From positions 11,302,329 to 11,366,328 of the forward strand of contig JALIGW010000021.1 of the NCBI GenBank assembly GCA_023053685.1: DNA of 64,000 nt. Reading direction: 5' to 3'. A program made the translations under genes and the position numbers. The notes under the pieces were generated by a model. The model ran no database searches. It worked only from the letters and a program-made list of their open reading frames with translations, and had not been told where the DNA came from. This document shows, piece after piece, positions 21,311 to 29,642 of the stretch; within the stretch, counting starts at the first letter, position 1, and each line of letters starts with the position of its first letter. This DNA is from Diadophis punctatus similis. Lineage: Eukaryota; Chordata; Lepidosauria; Squamata; Dipsadidae.

Positions 21311-21480
21311 CCCAGGGGCAGGTTGCTAACTTACCTTGCTACCGGTACACTGCGCGCGCATCATCATGATTCGGGCGATAAAATTTCCCGAAATCTTCTC
21401 TTGAAAAGATCTTATTCCAGATGTCCCACTGACAAACTTGCAGAAATAAAAGCAAAAGGAAAAACAGCAACCACCAGAAA

Positions 21481-22593
21481 ACGGCTTTCTCAGCGGCTTT
21501 CGATACCATTGACCATGGTATCCTTCTGCGTCGTCTTGGGGAGATGGGAGTGGGAGGCACTGTTTTACGGTGGTTCTCCTCCTACCTCTCTGACAGGACG
21601 CAGTCGGTGTTGACAGGAGGACAGAGGTCGGCCCCTAGGCCCCTGGTTTGCAGGGTGCCACAGGGCTCAGTCCTCTCGCCCATCCTGTTTAACATTTACA
21701 TGAAACCGCTGGGCGAGATCATCCGACGACATGGGGTGAGGTATCAGCAGTATGCTGACGATACCCAGTTGTACATCTCCACCCCGTGTCAGTTCAGTGA
21801 AGCAGTTGATGTAATGTGCCACTGCCTGGACGATGTGAGGGTCTGGATGGGAGTGAACAGACTCAGGCTCAACCCAGACAAGACTGAGTGGCTCTGGATA
21901 TTGCCTCCCAAGGACTATGTCGACTGTCCCTCCTTGGGTCTCGGGGGAGAAAAATTGACTCCCTCAGAACAGGTTCGCAATTTGGGTGTCCTCCTAGATC
22001 CACAGCTAAAATTGGAGCAACACCTTTCAGCTGTGGCTAGGGGGACCTTTGCACAAATCCGTCTTGTGCACCAATTGCGACCTTACTTGGAGAGGGAGGC
22101 CTTGCTCACAGTCACTCATGCCCTTGTCACCTCACGGCTAGACTACTGTAACGCGTTCTACATGGGGCTACCCTCGAAGAGCATCCGGAGACTCCAACTG
22201 GTACAGAATGCAGCTGCGCGAGCGGTAGTGGGTGTGCCGAGATACACCCACGTAACACCTATCCTTCGCCAGCTGCATTGGCTACCAATTAGTCTCCGGT
22301 CGCAATTCAAGGTGTTGGTCGTTACCTTTAAAGCCCTACATGGCTCAGGGCCAGGTTACCTGCGGGACCGCATCCTACCACATACCTCCCTAAGACCGGT
22401 TAGGTCCCACAGAGAGGGCATCCTCCGGGTCCCGTCGGCTAAACAATGTCGATTGGCGGGGCCGCGGGGGAGGGCCTTCTCTGTGGGAGCCCCGTCCCTC
22501 TGGAACCAACTACCACCAGAGATCCGGACCATCCCCACCCTGCTGGCCTTCCGTAAAGCCTTAAAAACATGGCTCTTCCGGCAGATGGGGTGA
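21481..22593 (+). CDS. LINE reverse transcriptase (Jockey superfamily, L2/CR1-like), 5' truncated
   Basis: An uninterrupted frame of about 370 codons up to the TGA at 22591-22593. It carries RT motif A (FSAAFDTIDH, catalytic Asp codon 21502), a PQGSVLSPILFNIY block and motif C QYADDTQLY with the YADD catalytic pair. The C-terminal blocks LGVLLDPQL, LVTSRLDYCNAFYMGLP, RLQLVQNAAARAVVGVPRYTHVTPIL (read in parts) and LHWLPISLR follow. The endonuclease and N-terminal RT are missing, so it cannot be autonomous. The first ATG in frame is at 21544, but the true frame opens earlier, so no start is claimed. The 3' UTR runs to about 22768 with CCCACGGGATTGGGCGGCC and an A-rich AATAAATAAAA tail. Lack of stops suggests a recent insertion. 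Confidence 0.88.
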   Translation, partial: TAFSAAFDTIDHGILLRRLGEMGVGGTVLRWFSSYLSDRTQSVLTGGQRSAPRPLVCRVPQGSVLSPILFNIYMKPLGEIIRRHGVRYQQYADDTQLYISTPCQFSEAVDVMCHCLDDVRVWMGVNRLRLNPDKTEWLWILPPKDYVDCPSLGLGGEKLTPSEQVRNLGVLLDPQLKLEQHLSAVARGTFAQIRLVHQLRPYLEREALLTVTHALVTSRLDYCNAFYMGLPSKSIRRLQLVQNAAARAVVGVPRYTHVTPILRQLHWLPISLRSQFKVLVVTFKALHGSGPGYLRDRILPHTSLRPVRSHREGILRVPSAKQCRLAGPRGRAFSVGAPSLWNQLPPEIRTIPTLLAFRKALKTWLFRQMG

Positions 22594-23514: not shown

Positions 23515-23628
23515 TTCTCCATAGTGGGTGGCGCTAGCCTCCAAGATTGGGATGACCTCATCCATCAGCCAATCAGGACTGAGTCTGACCTCATATAAAA
23601 GCTGTCACTGTGCCATAATCCCCCTCTT
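23515..23628 (+). repeat. DIRS left inverted terminal repeat
   Basis: Positions 23526-23628 match the reverse complement of 29524-29626 with a single C/T difference. The outermost bases TTCTCCATAGTGGG differ slightly in spacing from the right end. Positions 23515-23552 recur as reverse complement at 29349-29386 in the internal complementary region. Confidence 0.93.
23591..23600 (+). promoter_or_regulatory. TATA box in DIRS left ITR
   Basis: TCATATAAAA contains TATAAAA at 23594-23600, followed about 25 bp later by the pyrimidine tract CCCCCTCTTTC, a plausible initiator. It faces into the Gag leader. The spacing is consistent with a Pol II core promoter; transcription is not shown. Confidence 0.65.
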
Positions 23629-24327
23629 TCGACTCAGTCCTAGGCCTAGGATTGTTTCTCCCCAATTTCGCAGTTTTTCTACCACCTTCAACTGAATCCA
23701 GATTTTGGACCATCTATCAACTTTATTACTAACTGTGAGTGAGTCCCCACCTGTCCTATCCATCGGGGGTGTTGGGACTGTCTGGACAGGCTGCGGCCTA
23801 GTCCACGGCCTACCTCCACCTTTGGTGGATGGTTACCATCCTCACAGTGTGGCCTGGCATTCCTGTTTCCATCTTGTCACAGAAGCCTAGCGCTTGGGTG
23901 ACCAGCAGCCAGGGTGGCCTTTTGCCACTTTCCGCAGAGAGAGACCCTTCCTTGGTTGCCCCGCAGAAGCCAAGCGCTTGAGCGGTCAGGGCCTCTCTCT
24001 CCCTCTCTGCTCCCCCTAATCGGGCTCAGTTTTTCTGTCGGCCTTTTGGGGAGTGTGGCCTCATGAGGGCGAGCGTTGGCGGTCCAGTCGGCGGCTCATC
24101 GGCCTGTGCGACCGCCCCTCCTCACTGAGGCCTGCCACCATCGGCCAGCTTCCTCCGTGGCCATTTGCCCCCTTGTTCGGGTTTGTGCCTGGTCGGGGAC
24201 TTGTGGAGAGGCTTGCGGCCTAATCGGCAGCAACTTCGGCTGCAGGCCGCGCCCTCCCTGTTGATACATTTGGCGCCCGGAGGAGCCGCGCTCCCGCCCA
24301 TCAGCTGTTTCACGGTGATTTGAAGAG

Positions 24328-24744: not shown

Positions 24745-26379
24745 ATGACGGAGCGAGCCACCTCGGGCAGGAATAAGCCCAGGCAGGCCAACGACAGGGA
24801 GGGTGGGGCAGGTCATTCCCCACCACCATCTGGGCACAGGGACCGCTCCCCCCTGAAGCAGGGCTCCGAGAAGGCCAAGGCCTCATCCAAGGGCCCAGAC
24901 AAGACCAAGGCCTCCTCCAAGGGGTCCCACCCCAGCAAGGACAAGGCTCCCAAGGCTCCTGAGCGCTCCGCTCTGCCCCCTGCTGGCCCAGCCCCCTTAG
25001 TGCACCATGAGCCCTCTCAGAGGGACAGGCGCTCCTCGGGCACCCTGTCGCTGGACAATCCAGACCTTTGTTTGGGGGAGGACGATATCTGGGAGGACCC
25101 CAGGCCCAGCTCACCTACGCCTCGCCCGCCCACTGCCACACAACAATTTTATTCACCTGAGGTGCAGGCATTGATACAGGCAGCCATCGCGCAGGGCATA
25201 GAGGCGGGCATGAAGCATGTGGCCATCGCAGCACCACCCCCAGCTCCACCTTTGCAGCCGGCGCCACCTCGCACGCCACCTGCTACCATCACCGTGCAAC
25301 CCCCGGTGGCCGAAGCTGACCCAGGCTCTCCCCTGTCACTCCACGGACAGGACGACCAGGTTCAGGACTTGGAGCTGTCAGAGGATGAGGAGCTCGTCCC
25401 TGAGGCCCCGGTGATCACCGGATTGTTTAACCCCGCGCTCTTTAAATCGCTGCTCCACAAGGCCAGGGCCACGGCCAAGTTTTCCTCCAAGGACCAGGCG
25501 CCCGCAGGGGATGAACCCGAGGACCCTCTTTTCGAGGAAACCACCTCACAGCTGGAAGTGGTGCCGACCCCCAAATTATTTGTGGAGTCAGTGCTCAAGC
25601 AGTGGGCGTCCCCGACTGCCGGCGTCGTCCCCTCTACAGCGGACAAGCATTTCTTCAATGTTTCCTCCGCTCTGGCTCAACACCTGCCAGTCCCTCCGGT
25701 GGAACCGGCCATTAAGGTACTGTATTCTCCCGCGCAGATGCCTGGTGACTCAGAGGAGTTACTCCGTCCGGAGGACAGACGCACGGAACAAGCCCTGCAG
25801 AAGACGCACCAAGCGGCCGCTTGGGCCGTCAAGGCTTCTGCGACGGCTTCGTTCTTTTGCCGGACTTCCATTCGATGGCTGAAAGCTCTGCAAGAGCACC
25901 TGCCTGCCTCCGACGTTCGAGCGAGGCAAGATATCAACAAGCTCATCGCCGCCTCGCAGTTCACCTCGGACGCAACGCTCCAGGCCACCCGATTTGCTGC
26001 TAGAGCCATGGGAACCTCTGTGGTGGCGCGCAGAATGCACTGGCTGAGGAGCTGGCCCGCTGACTGTTGCCACAAGTGGCGGCTAGCTGGGGCTCCAGTG
26101 ACAGATAAGTCGCTCTTCGGTGAGGCCCTCGATCCCTACCTAATCGAGACTAAAGACAAACGCAAGGTCTTGCCAAACTCCACTAGGAAGGCACAGGCCA
26201 AGCCTCAGAGCCCTGCCCCGGCGTTCCCCAGGCGAAAGTATAGGGCACCTTCCTATAACCAAAGCAGATCGCGGGCCTCGCCCCGTCAGACTCAGGGTCA
26301 GGACAGGGCCAATTCTAACCAGCAATCCAAGCGCCCTTTTCGGAAGGCAGGTGGTCGCCCCTTCCGCCACTACAAGTAG
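24745..26379 (+). CDS. DIRS Gag-like ORF1 protein
   Basis: A 544-residue open frame. The ATG at 24745 has A at -3, and the upstream frame gives no other ATG. Residues 1-130 are low-complexity and rich in Pro, Ser, Lys and Ala. Residues 130-280 are acidic with Pro-rich stretches (APPPAPPLQPAPPRTPP). Residues 300-470 look folded and include MHWLRSWPADCCHKWR and DKSLFGEALDPYL, resembling the conserved FG..LD block of DIRS ORF1 proteins. The last 80 residues are strongly basic (RRKYRAPSYNQSRSR, RPFRKAGGRPFRHYK), suitable for nucleic acid binding. No CCHC zinc knuckle is present. By family it should package the RNA; that role is inferred. The frame ends at 26377-26379 inside a region overlapping the RT frame. 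Confidence 0.88.
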   Translation: MTERATSGRNKPRQANDREGGAGHSPPPSGHRDRSPLKQGSEKAKASSKGPDKTKASSKGSHPSKDKAPKAPERSALPPAGPAPLVHHEPSQRDRRSSGTLSLDNPDLCLGEDDIWEDPRPSSPTPRPPTATQQFYSPEVQALIQAAIAQGIEAGMKHVAIAAPPPAPPLQPAPPRTPPATITVQPPVAEADPGSPLSLHGQDDQVQDLELSEDEELVPEAPVITGLFNPALFKSLLHKARATAKFSSKDQAPAGDEPEDPLFEETTSQLEVVPTPKLFVESVLKQWASPTAGVVPSTADKHFFNVSSALAQHLPVPPVEPAIKVLYSPAQMPGDSEELLRPEDRRTEQALQKTHQAAAWAVKASATASFFCRTSIRWLKALQEHLPASDVRARQDINKLIAASQFTSDATLQATRFAARAMGTSVVARRMHWLRSWPADCCHKWRLAGAPVTDKSLFGEALDPYLIETKDKRKVLPNSTRKAQAKPQSPAPAFPRRKYRAPSYNQSRSRASPRQTQGQDRANSNQQSKRPFRKAGGRPFRHYK

Positions 26380-26382
26380 TGG
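26334..26382 (+). promoter_or_regulatory. Candidate -1 frameshift signal between Gag and RT
   Basis: C CCT TTT (26334-26340) is a canonical X XXY YYZ heptamer, in phase with Gag codons (Pro 26335, Phe 26338). It lies inside the window 26319-26379 where the RT frame (-1 relative to Gag) is open. CGGAAGG (26341-26347) pairs perfectly with CCTTCCG (26360-26366), and loop bases GTGG (26351-26354) can pair with CCAC (26367-26370) as an H-type pseudoknot. Alternatively CCACTA (26367-26372) pairs with TAGTGG (26377-26382) over the stop codon. The stem touches the heptamer with no spacer, which is tighter than usual. Confidence 0.6.
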
Positions 26383-28265
26383 ATCAGACTTCTCCCATTG
26401 GGGGTCACCTGCGTTTTTTCGCTAGGCGGTGGGAGGAGATTACTACGGACGCTTGGGTTCGCGAGACCCTAACACTCGGACTCGCCTTAGATCTCCTCTC
26501 CACTCCCCCCGACTCCTTCATGAGGTGCTCCCAGTCCTCCAACCCGCAGAAACGGGCCCAGATGCTTGAAGCCATCCAGCATCTGCTGGAGATTGAGGCC
26601 ATCCAGCGGGTCCCTGAGGACCAGCGGGGGCAAGGATTCTATTCCAATTTGTTCCTCGTGGAGAAGTCGTCGGGTGGGTGGAGAGCGGTCTTGGACCTCA
26701 AGCGCCTTAATAAGTTCTTGGTGTACAAGAAATTTAAGATGCATACTCTACAGTCCATATTGGACGGCATTCGTAAGGGTGACTTTATGTGCTCTATCGA
26801 CCTCACTGAGGCATATTTGCATGTCCCAATTCGGCCTTCCCACCAAAAGTTCCTGCGATTCTCATATGACAACGAACACTATCAGTATTCGGCCCTGCCA
26901 TTCGGCCTCTCCTCGGCACCCAGGGTCTTCACAAAGATTCTGGCCGCCCTTGCAGCTCACTTGAGGGCAGTGCCGATTCGAATACAGTGTTACCTCGACG
27001 ACATTTTAATTCAGTCATCTTCCCTGGCCCGGGCAGAGCTGGACCTGCAGACCACCATGGACGTTCTGCAATACCACGGCTTCTCTCTCAACCTGGAGAA
27101 GAGCCACTTGATTCCCTCCACTCGCATCACTCACTTAGGGGCCATTGTGGACTCTCTGGAGTGCAGGGTGTATCTGTCGGAGGAAAGACAACTCAGTCTG
27201 TCTTCTCTGACCCAACAGGTTCTTGGACAGGGCCGGGTTCCGCTGAACCTCCTGTCCTCCCTGTTGGGAAAGATGATATCCGCTATACATATAACACCTT
27301 GGGCACAACTGCACTCCAGAGACCTACAATGGTTTCTTTTGCCATTTCAGCAGGCGAACAAGTCCAACTCCTCGGCCAGGGTCCAGCTCCCGACGGCGGT
27401 CCGGCGGTCCCTGCATTGGTGGCAGTCCCCAGCGATCAGCAAGGGTTCCAGCTTCCTCGAGCCTCGCCGGGTGACGGTGACATCGGATGCCAGCCTCTAC
27501 GGGTGGGGCGCTCACACATCGTCCCACGTGGCACAGGGCACCTGGACCGCAGCGGAGTCAACGGCCAGCATCAACCTCCTGGAGCTACGAGCGGCGTACC
27601 TGGGCCTCCGGCAATTCCAGCATCTCCTAACTGGGCAACACGTCCTCCTGTTGACGGACAACGTGACCACCAAAGCCCATGTCAACAGGCAAGGTGGGAC
27701 TGTCTCGCGCCGCCTGCTCTCCGAGGCCAAGGAATTAGGCCTCTGGGCGGAATGGCACCTCCTCTCGCTCTGGGCGGAGCACATCTCAGGGGTGTCGAAC
27801 CGCACAGCGGACTGGCTCAGCCGCCACGACGTCGACACGGCAGAGTGGGCCCTGCACCCAGACATTTTTCGGGAGCTGACTGCCCGGTTTGGCAACCCGG
27901 TGGTCGACCTCTTTGCGACCCCGCTGAATGCCAAGCTCCCGCGCTTCATCACGCGGTATCAGACACCTGGCACGATGGACACGGACGCCCTCCGTTGCCC
28001 GTGGCCACGGGGCCTACTCTACGCATTTCCGCCCCTTCCACTCATTCCCCGAGTTATCAGGAAGATGCTAGACGAGCAGGCGGAACTGATCCTATTGGCC
28101 CCCCATTGGCCGCGACGGGCATGGTTCGCGGACCTCAAGTCGCTCTCGACCAGCCCATCCTGGAGGATCCCGCAGACCACATCGTCGCTCTCCCAGGGGT
28201 CAGTTCAGCACCCGGATCCACAGTGGCTCCAACTGACCGCCTGGCGCTTGAGCGGCGCACCCTAA
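26340..28265 (+). CDS. DIRS ORF2: reverse transcriptase, RNase H and Dam-like domain
   Basis: The frame is open from 26319. The start given is the first codon read after the proposed slip. The first ATG is only at 26520, inside the RT fold, and GTG at 26379 is not a credible eukaryotic start. Counting residues from 26379: RT motif A SIDLTEAYLHVPI (139-151, Asp141), motif B ALPFGLSSAPRVF (172-184) and motif C YLDDIL (205-210) with both Asp. RNase H has TSDAS (Asp370), LELRA (Glu402), TDN (Asp427) and TADWLSR (Asp478), a complete DEDD set. Residues 495-590 have VDLFAT, YAFPPLPLI and LILLAPHWPRRAWF, the post-RNase H domain of DIRS elements usually described as Dam-like methyltransferase. No stop or lost catalytic residue is seen. 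Confidence 0.93.
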   Translation, partial: SEGRWSPLPPLQVVDQTSPIGGHLRFFARRWEEITTDAWVRETLTLGLALDLLSTPPDSFMRCSQSSNPQKRAQMLEAIQHLLEIEAIQRVPEDQRGQGFYSNLFLVEKSSGGWRAVLDLKRLNKFLVYKKFKMHTLQSILDGIRKGDFMCSIDLTEAYLHVPIRPSHQKFLRFSYDNEHYQYSALPFGLSSAPRVFTKILAALAAHLRAVPIRIQCYLDDILIQSSSLARAELDLQTTMDVLQYHGFSLNLEKSHLIPSTRITHLGAIVDSLECRVYLSEERQLSLSSLTQQVLGQGRVPLNLLSSLLGKMISAIHITPWAQLHSRDLQWFLLPFQQANKSNSSARVQLPTAVRRSLHWWQSPAISKGSSFLEPRRVTVTSDASLYGWGAHTSSHVAQGTWTAAESTASINLLELRAAYLGLRQFQHLLTGQHVLLLTDNVTTKAHVNRQGGTVSRRLLSEAKELGLWAEWHLLSLWAEHISGVSNRTADWLSRHDVDTAEWALHPDIFRELTARFGNPVVDLFATPLNAKLPRFITRYQTPGTMDTDALRCPWPRGLLYAFPPLPLIPRVIRKMLDEQAELILLAPHWPRRAWFADLKSLSTSPSWRIPQTTSSLSQGSVQHPDPQWLQLTAWRLSGAP

Positions 28266-29326
28266 CTCTTCGCGGGGTCCCCGAGAGCATTATCAGAACT
28301 CTGCTCTCCTCTCGCCGGGCCTCCACCATCCGCATCTACAACTCCACCTGGCGGACATTTCACGATTGGTGTGTCGGCACCGGCTTTAACCCGATCGACC
28401 TCTCGGTCATACAGGTCCTCCAATTTCTGCAAGCGGGCCTCAACAAGGGTCTCTCGCCCAGCACCTTGCGGCGACAGGTGGCAGCGCTCTCAACGGTCCT
28501 TTCATGCCACTCTTCTGCGCCCTTGTCAACGCATCCCTTAATCGTTCGCTTCTTGAAGGCGGCGGTCAATATCTCGCCTCCCGTGGTACATAGGTACCCC
28601 ACCTGGGACCTGCAGAAGGTTCTTCTGGCACTGACCGAGGCCCCCTACGAGCCCCTCCGGACAGTTTCGCTGCAGCACCTTACGCATAAGGTTGCCTTTT
28701 TGGTAGCGATCACTTCAGCCCGGAGAATATCCGAACTGGCAGCCCTATCCGTCCGGGACGATCTCTGTATTTTTCATCCGGACCGGGTGGTGCTTCGCCT
28801 TGACCCCACATTCCTGCCCAAGATCAATACATACTTCCACAGGGCGCAGGAAGTGGTTCTTCCTTCCTTCTGCTCTCCACCTACAACGCCGACCGAGTGC
28901 AAATGGCACGCTGTCGATGTCCGGCGGGCGATAAAAATCTACAATGTCCGCACGGCTGCATTCCGCCGCTCAGAGTCCTTGTTCGTGGGATTCCACGCCT
29001 CGTCCATGGGTCGCAAGGCTTCGGCGGCGATGGTCGGTCGCTGGATACGCGCAGTCATCGCGGACACTTACCGACAGCAGGACCTGCCTCGTCCGCCACG
29101 TCTGACGGCGCACTCGACGCGCAGCGCCGCCACCACGGCAGCTTGGACTACTAATGCCTCCTTGGAGGAACTATGCCGAGCGGCGACGTGGTCTTCTCCG
29201 TTGCCCTTTATTAGACATTATAAAGTAGACTCCTTTGCCTCGGCTGAGGCGGATTTTGGGCGCAAGGTCTTGCAGACCATAGTTGCTCCTGACGAGGTCT
29301 ACGATTCTGGTGACAACCCTCCCTAG
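28121..29326 (+). CDS. DIRS ORF3: tyrosine recombinase
   Basis: 401 residues from an ATG at 28121 with G at -3 and G at +4, overlapping the RT ORF by 145 bases in another frame. The same frame is open upstream to about 26987, but that part is antisense-free GC-rich coincidence and starts at GTG, so it is not counted. The N-terminal core-binding region includes RRASTIRIYNSTWRTFHDW and GLSPSTLRRQVAALSTVL. Catalytic residues are visible: Arg in TSARRISEL (28721-28726), His-x-x-Arg in HSTRSAA (His 29111, Arg 29120) and the Tyr nucleophile in FIRHYKVDS (29219-29221). By family it inserts the circular cDNA, without making a target duplication. Confidence 0.93.
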   Translation: MVRGPQVALDQPILEDPADHIVALPGVSSAPGSTVAPTDRLALERRTLTLRGVPESIIRTLLSSRRASTIRIYNSTWRTFHDWCVGTGFNPIDLSVIQVLQFLQAGLNKGLSPSTLRRQVAALSTVLSCHSSAPLSTHPLIVRFLKAAVNISPPVVHRYPTWDLQKVLLALTEAPYEPLRTVSLQHLTHKVAFLVAITSARRISELAALSVRDDLCIFHPDRVVLRLDPTFLPKINTYFHRAQEVVLPSFCSPPTTPTECKWHAVDVRRAIKIYNVRTAAFRRSESLFVGFHASSMGRKASAAMVGRWIRAVIADTYRQQDLPRPPRLTAHSTRSAATTAAWTTNASLEELCRAATWSSPLPFIRHYKVDSFASAEADFGRKVLQTIVAPDEVYDSGDNPP

Positions 29327-29348: not shown

Positions 29349-29442
29349 TCCCAATCTTGGAGGCTAGCGCCACCCACTATGGAGAAAGGGCGTTGTTACT
29401 TACCTGAACGCCCATTCTCGTAGGGTGGCGCTAGCCTCCAAG
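29349..29442. repeat. DIRS internal complementary region (circle-junction template)
   Basis: Positions 29349-29386 are the reverse complement of the left end (23515-23552, 38 bp). Positions 29382-29442 are the reverse complement of the right end (29607-29667, 61 bp, one mismatch). The two parts overlap by five bases, GAGAA. This adjacent storage of both ends is the hallmark used by DIRS elements to rebuild full termini through a circular intermediate. Confidence 0.93.
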
Positions 29443-29551
29443 TCCCTCCCTTTTTTTGGGTGTTGTACATACTGAAGGTGTGCGTGGGGGATAAACTATG
29501 GGTCTGACCTACTCCTTCGTCTCAAGAGGGGGATTATGGCACAGTGACAGC

Positions 29552-29558
29552 TTTTATA
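29552..29558 (-). promoter_or_regulatory. TATA box in DIRS right ITR, facing inward
   Basis: TTTTATA on the plus strand is TATAAAA on the minus strand, identical to the left promoter. It would drive antisense transcription across ORF3 and ORF2. Confidence 0.5.
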
Positions 29559-29642
29559 TGAGGTCAGACTCAGTCCTGATTGGCTGATGGATGAGGTCAT
29601 CCCAATCTTGAAGGCTAGCGCCACCCTACGAGAATGGGCGTT

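Follow-up and report, generated by a model that had tools for sequence, protein, structure and literature searches.

We analyzed a 64,000-nucleotide stretch of DNA (hereafter the window; contig JALIGW010000021.1, positions 11,302,329 to 11,366,328 of the forward strand) from the snake Diadophis punctatus similis, which carries a DIRS-type retrotransposon on its plus strand, and focused on the junction between the Gag and reverse transcriptase (RT) open reading frames (ORFs) of this element. Programmed −1 ribosomal frameshifting very probably takes place at this junction. With more reserve, although still on the favorable side, we propose that the junction is one form of a two-way recoding site: Pro-Phe-Arg codons would drive +1 frameshifting at UUU_CGN in most DIRS families of the genome, while in one prolific clade, to which the window copy belongs, a silent C/A-to-U difference before UUU together with a 2-nucleotide difference in downstream length would give −1 frameshifting at CCU_UUU.

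Within the window copy, the Gag and RT frames overlap by 61 nucleotides (26319–26379), with RT in frame 0 and Gag in frame 1, i.e., RT in −1 relative to Gag. The RT frame is closed by a TAA (26316–26318) six codons before the slip codon, and its first ATG lies at 26520, within the RT fold. Codons 26332–26343 read CGC CCT TTT CGG in Gag phase and contain the slippery heptamer C_CCU_UUU (26334–26340). No other in-phase X_XXY_YYZ heptamer with Y = A/T occurs anywhere in the Gag ORF, and by chance about 0.02 would be expected in the 18-codon overlap. The six nucleotides that follow (26341–26346), where UUU_CGG is also kept, form a spacer according to fold and alignment, the Gag stop codon TAG (26377–26379) lies 36 nucleotides past the heptamer, and the conserved RT start Pro-Ile-Gly-Gly (PIGG; 26394–26405), which served as frame anchor, lies 53 nucleotides past it. 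The initial annotation had described the 61-base −1 overlap, the lack of an RT-frame ATG until 26520 and the canonical CCCTTTT in Gag phase inside the overlap, and all of these are borne out by the sequence and its frames.

We propose that, when a ribosome reading Gag arrives at CCU UUU, tRNA-Pro would occupy the P site and tRNA-Phe the A site, and that both tRNAs would then move one base back, the UUU-reading tRNA being able to re-pair fully because a U precedes UUU. After the slip, the ribosome would incorporate Ser-Glu-Gly-Arg and go on into RT to make a Gag-RT fusion, and ribosomes that do not shift would terminate 36 nucleotides on at the TAG. Both the occurrence of shifting and its rate are predictions from sequence.

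To assess conservation, copies were collected from the source genome assembly (G000, 1.78 Gb), this one genome being the basis of all copy counts. Close copies were the best 40 of 1364 first-look candidates by DNA similarity to 26000–26600, of which 30, including the window copy, were fetched first. The heptamer is intact in 28 of these 30, which were picked regardless of it (altered in L004 and L013), and the −1 spacing is found in 28, with 1-nucleotide deletions in the other two; in the other 10 scored close copies the heptamer is intact in 9 (altered in L123). Genome-wide, the pattern CCCTTTTCG...CCATTGG occurs at 519 places versus 7 for a reversed control, and among the 100 matches listed 95 are 68 nucleotides long, which corresponds to the −1 spacing (one match looks unrelated). 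A heptamer-blind census, running from the Gag end CTWCAARTAG to CCCATTGG with a gap of 10–20 nucleotides allowed, recovered 638 clade copies versus 1 for the control. Among the 100 census matches listed, all on contig C1, the gap from TAG to CCCATTGG is exactly 14 nucleotides without exception. By coordinates, 65 of these listed copies are shared with the CCCTTTTCG listing (62 of them 68 nucleotides long), and the remaining 35, all of which were fetched, have CCT TTT in register in 34, L165 carrying the same letters one base out. Altogether CCTTTT stands at the site in 100/100 listed census copies and in register in 96, with C (70), G (18) or U (12) as the preceding base.

For comparison at the codon level, 80 distinct −1 clade sequences were obtained from 93 kept (L001–L030 minus L010 and L030, which have gaps; L101–L120, selected by heptamer; L121–L130; and L131–L165, selected for absence of CCCTTTTCG). 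The slip codons are TTT in 80/80 and CCT in 76/80, while the Arg codon before them varies (CGC 47, CGG 14, CGT 10) and neighboring synonymous positions drift. L101–L120 are 64–70% identical to the window over ~600 nucleotides, except L115 (52%), and in the window copy and these 20 members the RT frame closes 2–10 codons ahead of the slip codon. Aligned across the copies, then, the CCU_UUU core is constant and preceded by C, U or G, and the strict X_XXY_YYZ form is not clade-wide. We also considered whether CCT-TTT might be kept for RNA structure, for packaging, or for a protein motif plus codon preference. Protein constraint is real, as Pro-Phe-Arg is also conserved in snake Gag proteins, and UUU_CGN is kept in the −1 clade as well. 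However, protein sequence leaves the third bases of Pro and Phe free, Gag elsewhere uses TTT for 39% of Phe and CCT for 29% of Pro codons, and a Phe only eight codons past the site is TTC in 48/48 sequences, which makes this explanation very unlikely.

Other DIRS families of the same genome were searched with a rattlesnake Gag (P0012). The best 73 loci of 7195 candidates were scored, 70 of the 73 were taken (30 as loci, the other 40 as short stretches), and the junction was obtained in 62 of the 70; 52 were kept after dropping 10 with an unplaceable site (L033, L041, L054, L055, L061, L064, L065, L068, L077 and L093). The site finder scored Phe, Pro/Ser and Arg, which biases those residues but neither TTT versus TTC nor the third base of Pro, and in L056 it picked a second motif. 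We found that RT lies in +1 in 38 of the 52 loci, in 0 in 10 and in −1 in 4. The site Pro/Ser codon is CCC in 32, CCA in 14, TCC in 5 and TCA in 1, and the Phe codon is TTT in 49 and TTC in 3 (L038, L088 and L092), preceded by C in 37 and A in 15 and never by T; the chance of zero T would be ~2e-8 for independent loci, but independence does not hold here. The codon after the site Phe is CGN in 36, AGA/AGG in 5 and another in 11, several of these one step from CGN (TGN, CAN). Restricted to the 38 loci with RT in +1, TTT is found in 36 and CGN in 24. Elsewhere in the other-family Gag, TTT makes up 181/467 Phe codons (39%), and 10/45 in other (Pro/Ser)-Phe-Arg motifs, while CCT accounts for 29% of the other Pro codons versus none at the site. 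At the family level, 19 of 22 clusters have the site, 16 of them with TTT in most members (p 6e-5).

On the whole, then, the RT frame goes with the base that precedes UUU. This base is U across the census clade, where RT is in −1, and it is C or A, with UUU followed by CGN, in the families whose RT lies mostly in +1. The corresponding Pro-Phe-Arg codons of most other DIRS families in the genome resemble a +1 site (UUU_CGN). Frameshifting by +1 is likely in these relatives, and at this common position the window clade would shift the other way; the reversal seems to go along with a silent letter change. UUU_CGN in phase with a target ORF in +1 is found in the other families and not in the window element, for which a +1 shift into RT was rejected, since its +1 frame ends at 26425 and RT lies in −1. 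The programmed −1 frameshift put forward as a candidate by the initial annotation is therefore supported by the heptamer-blind census and by the contrast with the +1 relatives.

These data also bear on two further explanations. A spliced or separate mRNA could encode RT, or ribosomes could re-initiate or start internally past the Gag stop, with the heptamer being incidental. The third ORF of the window element likewise has no obvious expression route, and in the available part of a Dictyostelium study ORF2 and ORF3 of DIRS-1 were expressible as GFP fusions in some strains (PMC5633606). Yet the first ATG in the RT frame of the window copy, at 26520, already lies inside the RT fold. Splicing or re-initiation, moreover, would neither hold CCT-TTT amid drifting synonymous neighbors nor tie the RT frame to the base in front of UUU; we regard separate expression as improbable. 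Alternatively, the −1 spacing could be a disabling 2-nucleotide deletion inherited from one master copy and amplified by the RT of intact +1 relatives, with no −1 shift needed, in keeping with the distance from TAG to PIGG (14 nucleotides in the window clade versus 16 in the +1 families compared by eye) and with the UUU_CGG kept in the −1 clade. Such a deletion would need a chance coincidence of U before UUU with a −1 RT frame, whereas the −1 arrangement is common to several subfamilies mostly 64–70% alike (one 52%), 638 copies fit the census, and the window copy is open over a long stretch in each of its three frames. The RT rows of the clade also cluster in a tree (2 label changes versus 18.9 after shuffling) that is poorly resolved, includes damaged rows and was used for grouping only. 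We consider the master-copy explanation extremely unlikely, and because the tree is poorly resolved we make no claim about which shift direction is older.

Downstream of the slip site, the initial annotation had drawn a pseudoknot with a perfect 7-base-pair (bp) stem (26341–26347/26360–26366), loop bases able to pair downstream, and a 6-bp hairpin over the Gag stop (26367–26372/26377–26382). Both helices can form in the window copy. The 7-bp stem starts 0 nucleotides past the heptamer and would therefore already be opened by a ribosome at the slip site; in the 80 distinct sequences it is 86% paired (54–68% when slid) with two pairs often broken, and 424/1000 shuffles are as good. The hairpin is not conserved (74% paired, 737/1000 shuffles as good). 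Neither shows covariation, and in other −1 subfamilies both frequently have mismatched pairs. The zero-spacer stem and stop-codon hairpin were rejected as conserved stimulators, and the data do not support the pseudoknot in the form drawn. The downstream pairing of loop bases did find a counterpart, a 10-bp stem with arms at 26347–26356 (5′) and 26403–26412 (3′), identified by fold and by pairing across copies, which starts 6 nucleotides past the heptamer. With 26341–26346 taken as lying inside the ribosome, 26347–26425 folds at −28.1 kcal/mol, compared with −20.1 on average in 500 shuffles. The outer helix (26347–26353/26406–26412) is present in 28/30 close copies, and across the 80 distinct sequences 91.4% of the cells of the 10-bp stem are paired (38–59% when slid), with the pair 26352–26407 occurring as C-G in 42, U-G in 29, U-A in 6 and C-A in 3. 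This longer-range stem at a 6-nucleotide spacer is a better stimulator candidate than the 7-bp stem, and its putative role would probably be to stall the ribosome.

Several observations weigh against a −1 site in the window clade with a +1 counterpart in its relatives. Within the young subfamily of close copies the site is not unusually quiet, ranking 17 of 117 nine-codon windows at third positions and 156 of 575 25-nucleotide windows. G precedes CCU_UUU in 18/100 listed census copies and breaks the X_XXY_YYZ rule. The third T of TTT also opens the next codon of the RT frame and may be kept by RT coding, which makes its constancy weaker evidence in the −1 clade. Tight closing of the RT frame ahead of the slip codon is not universal, as L008 and L014 (subfamily a) keep it open 45 codons before PIGG. 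The candidate stem has weak covariation (42/1000 shuffles match the observed pairing), 26341–26430 alone is not unusually well folded (z −1.36, 19/200 shuffles equal), and a fold extended to 26460 favors a different shape. For the other families, the loci are related and locus-level p-values overstate the case, and frame calls disagree between two scorings for L039, L056, L064, L065 and L077. Four loci (L035, L036, L047 and L089) were scored with RT in −1 yet have no T before TTT; L035 and L036 lie among the +1 siblings L031, L032 and L034, and L047 and L089 are single copies damaged near the junction. Ten loci were scored as frame 0, and these and the four −1 loci are mostly damaged copies.

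Some loci depart from these patterns. Gag and RT share a frame in seven copies of the L058 family (L058, L059, L061, L062, L063, L077 and L097), apparently because the G-run just past a TTT CGA site has lost one G; in-frame Gag-RT fusion as a rule was considered and rejected, as these 0-frame copies look like single-G losses. Exceptions to UUU_CGN are TTT AGA in L072, L074, L078 and L098, with RT in +1, and TTC AGG in L092, none of which allows UUU_C re-pairing; the four TTT AGA loci are candidates for relaxed or differently shifting sites.

The proposed site resembles known recoding systems in different ways. In the available parts of the cited papers, Y_CCU_UUU is the −1 site of NS1′ in Japanese encephalitis-group flaviviruses, with C_CCU_UUU in West Nile virus, and it shares with the site described here the CCU_UUU slip codons, the proposed direction and, with the candidate stem, a structure 5–6 nucleotides downstream (PMC2657137, PMC11507841). 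Unlike NS1′, the present site stands at a retrotransposon Gag-RT junction, tolerates G in front (the 18/100 copies above) and is followed by a candidate stem rather than a proven pseudoknot. UUU_CGN is the +1 motif of influenza A PA-X (PMC3498833) and plant amalgaviruses (PMC5052127), and the available text of these two papers does not mention its use in a retrotransposon. UUU_CGN likewise stands in Gag phase at the junction of the relatives, whose RT lies mostly in +1, and the window clade keeps UUU_CGG, but its RT is in −1, out of reach of the motif. An overlap of Gag and RT in −1 with a heptamer is also seen in the Gag-Pol of long terminal repeat (LTR) retrotransposons and retroviruses, pol lying in −1 in 28/51 animal LTR elements surveyed in a frameshift review, in whose available part DIRS is absent (PMC5009743); DIRS elements differ in having inverted repeats and a recombinase instead of LTRs and an integrase. 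DIRS papers, as far as their available text goes, describe ORF overlaps, mainly of RT with recombinase, and give no translation mechanism (PMC3266345, PMC9210276, PMC4495291; likewise PMC3783388, PMC6681497 and PMC5633606). The initial annotation had noted that no such signal is known to be established for vertebrate DIRS elements, and among the papers found in our searches of open-access literature none reports −1 or +1 frameshifting for DIRS elements.

The element itself is bounded by inverted terminal repeats (23526–23644 and 29508–29626, 93% complementary) and has internal complementary repeats near 29349–29442. Three long open frames lie between the inverted repeats. The Gag ORF (24745–26379; frame open from 24697, ATG at 24745) has a LAP2alpha domain (PF11560, E 1.8e-9), and 15 Gag homologs were found at 36–45% identity, the 10 named ones all being from snakes. 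The second ORF (26319–28265, −1 relative to Gag) encodes RT (PF00078, E 4.6e-20) with RNase H-like (PF17917, 23.6 bits versus 24.8) and Dam-like (19.3 versus 28.1 bits) regions, both under the curated Pfam cut-off. The third ORF (26870–29326), which gave no match in a Pfam search, is presumed from its position to encode the tyrosine recombinase; it is in −1 relative to RT, and its first frame ATGs lie at 27329, 27752 and 28121. It overlaps the RT ORF by ~1.4 kb. With inverted terminal repeats, internal complementary repeats and RT/RNase H/methylase-like domains in one ORF, the element is DIRS1-like, and its LAP2alpha-type Gag and overlapping third ORF are also like those of vertebrate DIRS1-like elements. 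Upstream, a 386-amino-acid open frame (21433–22593) resembles by eye a non-LTR reverse transcriptase fragment.

Two further observations concern DIRS Gag sequences. Three snake protein predictions (P0001, P0111 and P0133), named TAF1D, exocyst component 3 and STAT5B-like, bear a DIRS Gag domain and are candidates for exonized elements or annotation artefacts. Six DIRS Gag matches (L031, L032, L034, L035, L036 and L039) lie within ~67 kb (G000:C274:2366883-2433330); the Gag frames of five are open over 485–665 amino acids, pairwise ratios of nonsynonymous to synonymous divergence are 0.46–0.55, with L039 taken in the wrong frame in this comparison, and the RT matches are broken or short. These Gag copies form a tandem cluster that is a candidate for domestication and recalls LAP2alpha.

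The DIRS literature, in the parts covered here, leaves the translation of RT unexplained. Hundreds of copies within one vertebrate genome serve here as a natural mutagenesis experiment, which points to two opposite modes of recoding at a single codon pair and suggests the use of a PA-X-type UUU_CGN by a retrotransposon. The evolution of frameshift direction thereby becomes testable with small reporters and, if the two-way reading is true, recoding direction can flip in evolution with the protein motif unchanged.
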